Source: Deltaproteobacteria bacterium (GTDB taxonomy: Bacteria > Myxococcota_A > UBA9160 > UBA6930). Taken from it: 64,000 nt of DNA. This document shows positions 27,350 through 46,121 of this stretch, in pieces (position 1 is the stretch's first letter; the number at the start of each line of letters is the position of its first letter). A program made the position numbers and the translations under genes. Location of the stretch: assembly GCA_016875395.1 (NCBI GenBank), contig VGRF01000006.1, forward strand, positions 62,001 through 126,000. The letters run 5' to 3'. The notes below the pieces were generated by a model. That model made no database searches. It was given only the letters and a program-made list of their open reading frames with translations, and had not been told where the DNA came from.

Positions 27350-27437
27350 GTGCAACGGCGACGTACGTAGGCGTGCAACGGGGACGTACGTGCAACTCAA
27401 CGTGTGCAAGCGCGATGCACGTACGTCCCCGTTGCAC
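27350..27437 (+). repeat. REP-like copies downstream of RAYT, including a perfect 22-bp inverted repeat
   Basis: A partial direct copy (27350-27368) is followed by a full copy at 27373-27394 and its exact reverse complement at 27416-27437. The two 22-bp arms match at every base, with a 21-base spacer, and contain the 14-mer GGGACGTACGTGCA seen upstream of the transposase. As RNA or single-stranded DNA this would fold into a strong hairpin. It ends 10 bases before the stop of the convergent DUF35 gene and could also end transcription. Confidence 0.85.
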
Positions 27438-27447
27438 GTCCCGCGCC

Positions 27448-44454: not shown

Positions 44455-44973
44455 TCACGCGCCGCGCAGCCGCGCGTAGACGAATTCGTCGACGAGCTCG
44501 CCGTCCTTGAACGAGGACTTGCGCAGCACGCCCTCGCGCACGAAGCCGCACTTCTCGAGCACGCGGCAGGAGGCCGGGTTCCACGCGTACACGTGCGCAT
44601 CGAGCCGCGCGACGTCGGTCTGTGCGAACGCGGCATCGCTCAGCGCCGCGAGCGCCTCGCTCGCGTAGCCGCGCCCCCAGGCGTGCGGCCCGAGCATGTA
44701 CCCGATCGTGCCCGTGTACCGCTGCCGCCCGTCGAAGCGATACATCCCGATGCTGCCGACCACGTCGCCGCTCGCCTCGATCGCGAGATGCCAGGAGCGC
44801 TCGTCCTTCAGCGCCATCGCGAGAAACGCGTCCGCCGCCGCGCGCGTGTACGGAAACGGAATCGAGTCGCCGACGTTCCGCCACACCGCGCGATGATTGA
44901 TGTTCCGCACCAGCGCCTCTTCGTCGCCGAGCCGCCAGCTCCGCAATAACAACCGCGCCGTCCGTATCTCCAT
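44455..44973 (-). CDS. GNAT N-acetyltransferase (RimJ/RimL type)
   Basis: A 172-residue acetyltransferase. It starts with IRTARLLLRSWRLGDEEALV, typical of the RimJ/RimL/YdaF subgroup; the acetyl-CoA loop is in MLGPHAWGRGYASEALAAL and the end of the fold reads WNPASCRVLEKCGFVREGVL. The substrate could be a protein N-terminus, a ribosomal protein or a small amine; sequence alone does not decide. It is convergent with the regulator gene. Upstream lies a 368-base gap that contains the structured-RNA candidate. Confidence 0.9.
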   Translation of the reverse strand: MEIRTARLLLRSWRLGDEEALVRNINHRAVWRNVGDSIPFPYTRAAADAFLAMALKDERSWHLAIEASGDVVGSIGMYRFDGRQRYTGTIGYMLGPHAWGRGYASEALAALSDAAFAQTDVARLDAHVYAWNPASCRVLEKCGFVREGVLRKSSFKDGELVDEFVYARLRGA

Positions 44974-45129
44974 CGCACGAAGCTAACGACCGCACGCTCA
45001 CGGGCCGCCGACTCCGGGAAGCGCGGGAGGCGCGCCTCAACGGCGCGCCGACCCGCGCACGAATTCCGTCACATTCGATCACGCGAGCACGGCACCGAAC
45101 GCGCAGGAGACGCAGGCCGAGCAGGCGGA

Positions 45130-45277
45130 GCGCGGCGGGCGGGCCGCGGCGGCGAGGTAAGACCGGACGAGGGGCCCAAGAGAACGCCCGCCTTCAGACG
45201 AAGCGCGCCCCGTCTCCGAAGTGATTCCACCCAAAGGCCCCGAGGAGGCACGAGCCGCCGCGGCCCGCCCGCCGCGC
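45130..45277. ncRNA. Candidate structured RNA with 24-bp perfect closing stem
   Basis: Within the 368-base gap 44974-45341, bases 45130-45153 pair perfectly with 45254-45277 (24 bp, all G-C). The 100 bases between hold further nested pairing: GGGGCC 45171-45176 with GGCCCC 45236-45241, and a terminal hairpin CTTC-AGACG (45192-45200) with CGTCT-CC-GAAG (45211-45221). The layout of closing stem, asymmetric internal loop, short helix and terminal hairpin recalls 6S-like RNAs, but I could not match a known family and cannot tell the strand. The rest of the gap shows only a GGCGCGCC inverted pair near 45030-45050 and no gene. Confidence 0.4.
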
Positions 45278-45341
45278 GGAGCCGGTCCCACGAACCAGCG
45301 CGGCGACGGGAGCGAAGCGATCCGTCGCCTCTCCGTAACAA

Positions 45342-46121
45342 CTACCGCCGCGCCACCGCCAACATCGCCTCCGTCGCCACCTCGATGCACTGCGCCATGT
45401 TGCGGTTGAGGTCGATCTCCGCGGGCCCCGGCCACGGCGTGCGATCGCTCACGACGCAGATGCAGCCCGCGCGCACGCCGAACAGCGTCGCGAGCGTGAG
45501 CAGCACGCCGCTCTCCATCTCCATGTTCACGACGCCCGCCGCGCGCATGTCCTCGATGCGCTGGCGGTGCTCGTGCGCCCAGTAGCCGCCGACGCTCATC
45601 GAGCTCATGCCGCCGCCCGCCGCGAGCGTGGCGTTGCGGATGTAGAACGCGTCGAGCGACCAGGTGACGCCAGCCCGATGCCGTGCGCCGCGCTTCTTCG
45701 CCGCAGCCAGCAGCGCGCCCACGGTCGCGTGGTCGGCGACCGCGGGGAACTCGGGAATCACGTACGCCTTGCTCGTGCCGTCGTCGCGCACGGCGCCCGT
45801 CGTGATCACGAGATCGCCGAGCGCGAGATCGGGCGCGAGGCCGCCGCTGTTGCCGACGCGGATGAACGTGTGAGCGCCGAGCTTGATCAGCTCCTCCACG
45901 ATCACCGCCGTGCTCGGCGCGCCGATGCCCGTCGATGCCGCGCACAGCGGCACGCCATCGAGCTCCCCCGTAACAACTCGGTACTCGCGGACGCGGCACG
46001 TCTCGCGCACGCCGCGCCAGCTCGCGCTGATCTTCTCGACGCGCGCCGGGTCGCCGCACACGAACACGTGCGGCGCGACGCGATCGGCCGTGAGGCCGGT
46101 GATGGGCTGGGCGTTCGACAC
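45342..46121 (-). CDS. Uridine phosphorylase-like nucleoside phosphorylase
   Basis: A 259-residue phosphorylase that would cleave nucleosides with phosphate to free base and ribose 1-phosphate. The phosphate-binding GDPARVEKI, the second segment HTFIRVGNSGGLAPDLALGD and the ribose/base region VVNMEMESGVLLTLATLFG followed by ICVVSDRT are the marks of the PNP/UDP superfamily, closest to uridine phosphorylase. Base specificity cannot be read with confidence. It is transcribed leftward, toward the structured-RNA candidate, and divergent from topB. Confidence 0.9.
   Translation of the reverse strand: MSNAQPITGLTADRVAPHVFVCGDPARVEKISASWRGVRETCRVREYRVVTGELDGVPLCAASTGIGAPSTAVIVEELIKLGAHTFIRVGNSGGLAPDLALGDLVITTGAVRDDGTSKAYVIPEFPAVADHATVGALLAAAKKRGARHRAGVTWSLDAFYIRNATLAAGGGMSSMSVGGYWAHEHRQRIEDMRAAGVVNMEMESGVLLTLATLFGVRAGCICVVSDRTPWPGPAEIDLNRNMAQCIEVATEAMLAVARR

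Follow-up and report, generated by a model that had tools for sequence, protein, structure and literature searches.

A dispersed family of extragenic hairpins with a conserved internal loop and free stem sequence, represented by a divergent copy in a deltaproteobacterial genome

REP and BIME elements are extragenic palindromes that occur in tens to hundreds of copies, lie behind 3′ ends between convergent or tandem genes, form inverted pairs, are patchily distributed among relatives and in some cases keep conserved mismatches in the stem (PMC3733652, PMC8266576). REPs between convergent genes are located less than 20 bp from both 3′ ends, which is the same placement as that of the elements described here (PMC3733652). 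REPINs are dispersed, non-autonomous inverted repeats with a variable middle (PMC3116915). MITE-like elements such as Correia/NEMIS and YPAL (PMC2229807) are 100–200 bp in length, form long stem-loops and are found with empty as well as filled sites. Two further systems are built around a hairpin: 6S RNA (RF00013) has a long closing stem with an internal loop, and the integron attC site is a hairpin behind genes on the opposite strand, in which structure counts over sequence and the tip is variable.

The hairpin family reported here was recognized from one copy in the window, that is, the whole 64,000-nt stretch of DNA that was analysed. It resembles each of these systems in the respects just given and differs from each in others. 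A REP is a fixed-sequence palindrome of 20–40 bp, whereas the hairpins measure 80–160 bp, their stem sequence is not fixed, and they contain a conserved asymmetric internal loop. By inspection, the GTAG/CGTC tag at the end of a REP palindrome is absent; CGTC was seen in some gammaproteobacterial copies, only internally and beside the loop. Unlike GTAG-class REPs, the hairpins have no RAYT gene alongside, and none is present in the genome with the highest copy number. The conserved part of a REPIN is its ends, two REP ends around a variable spacer, whereas the ends of the hairpins drift and the motifs on the loop side are conserved. Compared with MITEs, fixed terminal repeats are missing, no TA ends were seen, the inverted repeats differ from copy to copy and the stem sequence is free. 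By place and behaviour the family belongs with the repetitive extragenic palindromes, although the defining tags are missing and its plan is a different one, with a constant loop and a freely varying stem.

The hairpin of the window and the plan of the family

The two arms of the hairpin, 45130–45153 and 45254–45277, are perfectly complementary over 24 bp and enclose 100 nt, as stated in the preliminary description. This is the longest of the perfect inverted repeats in the window with a spacer of up to 150 nt, and in fifteen Markov-shuffled versions of the window (71% GC) the maximum was 16 bp. The predicted fold of the + strand has an energy of −105.6 kcal/mol (z = −5.5), and that of the − strand is also far better than shuffles (z = −3.3). 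The gap around it, confirmed as 368 nt without a gene (44974–45341), is flanked by two genes on the − strand. The element lies behind the PNP_UDP_1 phosphorylase gene (45342–46121), whose 3′ end is 64 nt away, and the next gene on the same strand encodes a GNAT acetyltransferase (44455–44973). The match to the R1 model (134.5 bits) delimits the whole element as 45126–45280 on the + strand.

On the + strand, which the wobble bias described below points to as the structured strand (the − strand being the gene-sense strand), the parts follow each other in this order. The left arm of the closing stem P1 (45130–45153) is followed by the left loop motif GAGGTAAGACCGGAC (45154–45168), which alignments identify as a divergent form of the family motif GAAGTAAAGCGCAG. 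The short helix P2, taken from the fold of four copies, consists of GGGGCC (45171–45176) and GGCCCC (45236–45241) and encloses a variable tip with GCCTTCAGA (45186–45209) that is conserved only inside the four-copy subfamily; the tips of other subfamilies are unrelated to it. The right loop motif GAGGCACGA (45245–45253), in the alignments a divergent form of the family motif GAGCCATKM, leads into the right arm of P1 (45254–45277). At least two more helices had been proposed inside the closing stem. P2, beside the loop motif, holds, with some covariation in 5–6 pairs and 59–90% of cells paired; the terminal hairpin is poorly supported, as two of the four copies break its middle pair.

Across the family, the plan comprises a stem of 16–30 bp of nearly free sequence, the conserved asymmetric internal loop, a small P2 and a variable tip of 3 to about 80 nt. 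The loop motifs beside the stem read GAAGTAAAGCGCAG and CGAGCCATKMG on the + strand of the window and are conserved across genomes that differ strongly in GC content. Myxococcota-type elements are about 150 bp long. Their stem has about 26 pairs and is followed by the motifs, a short P2 helix and finally a tip of 55–85 nt. In the usual form of Gammaproteobacteria, the loop is just 27 nt (ATGGCTCGCTNCGCTGCGCTTTACTTC on the other strand), and variants with a longer tip have 36 to 98 nt. The copy in the window and its three paralogues are divergent members that align over the full length and differ at several motif positions. In one high-copy genome, two pyrimidine mismatches near the loop are conserved and are replaced by true pairs in two copies. 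Some elements of a deltaproteobacterial metagenome-assembled genome (MAG) of 36% GC (L071:2950–3050 and L254:1400–1514) carry a CGTC-type REP-like repeat (TCATCCCTGCGAAGGCAGGGATCCAG) in the middle, a repeat within a repeat.

The comparison with 6S RNA in the preliminary description found no support, as RF00013 has no match in the whole genome and the element occurs in several copies whose neighbours are not constant. The Rfam covariance search found no family at gathering score, 6S included, and only chance-level matches in the gap at permissive settings (E ≤ 5). RNase P RNA was likewise rejected for the window element, which has no Rfam match; GAGGTAAGACCGGAC does resemble RNase P RNA, but the family reads GAAGTAAAGCGCAG at the same place, and the likeness is therefore accidental. 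The window contains a second perfect hairpin at 27372–27438, with 23-bp arms (CGTGCAACGGGGACGTACGTGCA), a 21-nt loop and GACGTACGTA standing just ahead of it. It is a different sequence type and matches R1 weakly, probably via the stem only.

Distribution of the copies and their position behind genes

A nucleotide search of the same genome revealed three further full-length relatives with 74–79% identity, and thus four full-length copies in total. The paralogues are located behind genes for a class V aminotransferase (serC-like), a PTS EIIA protein beside HPr kinase, and a class III aminotransferase. All four copies have the same orientation to the preceding − strand gene, at a distance of roughly 25–65 nt. 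A covariance model built from the four copies detected about 8 weaker copies in the same genome and matched 10 of 60 relatives, one of them with at least 23 copies. When the two loop motifs were searched as a pair, at least 120 stretches were found in named genomes. Among the matches listed, nearly all were from uncultured Myxococcales or ‘Deltaproteobacteria’ MAGs. Gammaproteobacteria (Woeseiaceae) contributed some, as did the 36% GC deltaproteobacterial MAG, which carries 32 motif copies in 1.7 Mb.

When a single motif was counted over whole genomes, each of 14 carriers had between 4 and 70 copies, and the reversed pattern gave zero. The copy counts are lower bounds, and nearly all carriers of the family are MAGs. 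Among 379 genomes of the phylum, the motif was concentrated in the order to which the window belongs and was patchy there. Copy numbers varied from 0 to 70 between genomes of one order, and within a single genus they were 40, 28, 19, 3 and 3. In the rest of the phylum the counts were near those of the reversed-pattern control, itself close to zero, and most genomes of the phylum are without the element. Viral contigs, phages and plasmids gave no match, and a phage or plasmid origin was rejected on that ground. No Rfam family is related to the copies, and in the searched literature the core sequence appears in no paper and nothing relevant was found on palindromic repeats of Myxococcota or Woeseiaceae. 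Judged against Rfam and this literature, the hairpin is a copy of a so far undescribed dispersed family.

We analysed the position of the copies relative to genes called with a simple codon-usage gene caller of our own making. Among copies with an upstream gene call, a same-strand gene was located upstream of 81 of the 110 elements of the Myxococcota type and 81 of the 99 from Gammaproteobacteria, and most copies lie within 65 nt of the stop codon of the same-strand gene in front. Over the family, the distance to the 3′ end in front ranges from a few to about 60 nt. Convergent neighbours were the commonest arrangement (45 Myxococcota-type, 59 gammaproteobacterial) and divergent ones were rare (5 in each). 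Between tandem genes the preference for one orientation was modest (46 vs 33), and the gap to the gene in front was tighter for the preferred orientation. In two gammaproteobacterial genomes (G061 and G063), twelve pairs of elements within a few hundred bases were tail-to-tail and none head-to-head, so that each convergent gene has one element. Single copies were found behind a tRNA (L236), an intrinsic terminator (L162) and an anti-hemB-like small RNA with a U8 terminator (L282). The latter RNA, in a gammaproteobacterial MAG (L282:1350–1451; 35.6 bits against a gathering score of 49.5; E = 8e-5), bears CCUCCCU motifs and is directly followed by the hairpin. The genes in front of the elements are unrelated housekeeping genes (NadA, YqeY, citrate synthase, PEP carboxylase, Crp and others), and a regulon was rejected for this reason.

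Such tight placement behind stop codons and between convergent genes, with one element per gene in the tail-to-tail pairs, could reflect a 3′-end hairpin kept by the host. Acting on either strand, it would mark a transcription end, protect mRNA or serve as a topology site, with the loop binding a protein; BIMEs are topology sites for gyrase. The loop, which keeps its sequence at a given site as the stem drifts, would also agree with such a role. We regard it as unlikely, as a T-run or U-tract after the stem was looked for and is absent, some copies already follow a complete terminator, and most genomes of the phylum manage without the element. An intrinsic terminator was rejected specifically because of the missing T-run. 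An integron attC-like site, in which a putative integrase would act on a bottom-strand hairpin placed behind each gene, would share the position behind genes, the folded strand opposite to the gene, the variable tip and the freely changing stem. Inspection of the consensus revealed no GTTRRRY/RYYYAAC boxes, however, and the neighbours are ordinary chromosomal genes and not cassette arrays, which makes this explanation highly improbable.

Stem covariation and turnover at orthologous sites

The stems of the four copies in the genome of the window differ and yet pair, and in 14–19 pairs one or more of the sequences are changed at both positions; P1 is formed in each of the three paralogues by different bases. 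In 28 aligned copies of one genome, 91% of cells were paired, and double changes were found in 21 of 32 pairs (115 cells, compared with 25 in shuffles). In a set of 30 sequences that included the four copies, all 26 stem pairs covaried. Double changes occupied 289 cells there, compared with 91 for shuffled and 57–84 for slid controls. Compensatory changes are thus present in the helices, and copying of one arm from the other at the DNA level would also yield them. The proposal of a novel non-coding RNA in the preliminary description stands as regards an undescribed and structured element, given the strong covariation and the lack of an Rfam match; that it acts as an RNA is no more than a possibility. 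Conservation only as a DNA repeat, which had been named as one contrary outcome, applies in part, because the hairpin is a dispersed repeat whose presence varies among relatives.

RNA helices are expected to change mainly via G-U. The set of copies from one genome contained 116 departures from the column consensus. Of these, 97 were fully paired, 48 of the 97 required transversions on both sides, and only 12 of the 116 were one-sided wobbles. GC/CG flips were nearly as frequent as GC/AT changes in the stems, and wobbles were rare. Few wobbles together with many two-sided transversions resemble one arm copied from the other rather than the change of an RNA helix, and the pairing pattern thus looks like arm copying at the DNA level. 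Template switching during replication has been described as a way in which stems are restored (PMC8794818).

The mismatches that do occur are unevenly distributed between the strands. On the gene-sense strand of the outer stem, A-C exceeded G-T mismatches by 128:52 in Gammaproteobacteria (p about 1e-8) and by 38:14 in a second set (p = 0.001), the p-values being optimistic because the copies are related to each other. The excess of A-C on this strand means that wobble is better tolerated on the + strand of the window, where it is 2.5-fold in excess. This bias points weakly to folding of the + strand as RNA or single-stranded DNA, and a mutational strand bias could be an alternative source. It is not predicted by arm copying alone.

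From these sequence comparisons, the element might be a functional RNA of the + strand, that is, a structured non-coding or 3′-UTR RNA whose loop would bind a protein or small RNA and whose copies would serve several transcripts. Covariation that includes P2, the favouring of G-U over A-C and a loop kept across genomes of very different GC content all argue for it. In the same stems, however, G-U pairs are very few and GC/CG flips numerous, the + strand runs antisense to the gene to which the element is tied, copy number is patchy with empty sites, and Rfam holds no relative. On this evidence we consider a functional RNA rather improbable.

Filled and empty sites were compared between relatives. 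In relatives with a readable gap between ptsN and hprK, hprK starts soon after ptsN and no element is present, so the copy at this place in the genome of the window is derived. For a gammaproteobacterial locus of 8 kb with three elements (sites A, B and C), the corresponding region of four relatives was examined. At site B, the two convergent genes adjoin in one genome, with zero bases separating them. Three genomes carry an element there with the same loop motifs; their stem arms are TTCGACCGGGAACCTCGTCG, TTCGGGCGCGATGCTTATCG and CGCGGCAACCATTTCA, and every one of these has a partner arm of its own that pairs with it perfectly or nearly so. Site C holds an element in two genomes, with unrelated stems, and none in three; site A is filled in one genome and empty in one. 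Elements therefore come and go, the loop sequence stays and the paired stem turns over. No obvious target-site duplication was found at the three orthologous sites examined. At L167:6135–6240 and L167:7095–7180, the same orthologous gap holds elements whose stems are unrelated between genomes; either elements were inserted repeatedly at one spot, or paired stems turn over very rapidly.

A mobile hairpin as the favoured explanation

We interpret the element, on balance, as probably a divergent copy of a REP-like family of extragenic hairpin DNA that is mobile in trans and whose arms are homogenised at the DNA level. A trans-acting factor would use the loop to recognise the + strand hairpin, in single-stranded or extruded form, and would set the copies behind transcription units. 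After insertion, and perhaps also during copying, one arm would be rewritten from the other by template switching during replication, so that the stem would stay paired while its sequence drifts, and the recognising factor would keep the loop conserved. A more specific version, which we offer tentatively as one possibility, is that the mobile hairpin is identified only by its internal loop, that a putative enzyme acts via this loop on the single-stranded hairpin and sets copies behind transcription units, and that the arms regenerate each other, as a result of which each site would have its own paired stem. Against a mobile DNA, no transposase or recombinase is linked to the element. Constant loops with different stems at orthologous sites also suggest a host-level constraint and not inert relics.

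A search for possible mobilising partners yielded no such gene. Y1 genes were commoner in genomes with R1 matches (9 of 11 vs 16 of 50; Fisher p = 0.005). None was flanked by the element in the carrier genomes examined, and Y1 genes are absent from the genome of the window (G000), from G017 and from the 70-copy genome G052; a RAYT partner was rejected on these grounds. Proteins of about 240 aa that match Y1_Tnp in part (profile 24–85) are encoded in multiple copies in the relatives G004 (30 genes), G024 (11) and G003 (11). They are not located beside the hairpin and possibly represent a divergent IS200-like or RAYT-like family. No RVT_1 match was found in G000, G008, G013, G017, G022 or G024, and a reverse transcriptase partner, or a repeat derived from a retron or group II intron, was rejected as there was no correlation. 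A search for a longer autonomous version, in which matching motifs and stem could be separated by as much as 7 kb, gave only chance pairs of neighbouring copies.

Covariation of stems is what normally serves as proof that an RNA is functional. The present family, with hundreds of copies, covaries almost completely, and yet its few wobbles, its many GC/CG flips and the stems that differ between genomes at one orthologous site while remaining paired point to copying between arms. It is a warning for RNA discovery based on covariation and a natural test of the maintenance of hairpins by template switching. It also adds a REP-like type of element without a known transposase that is common to distant bacterial groups.
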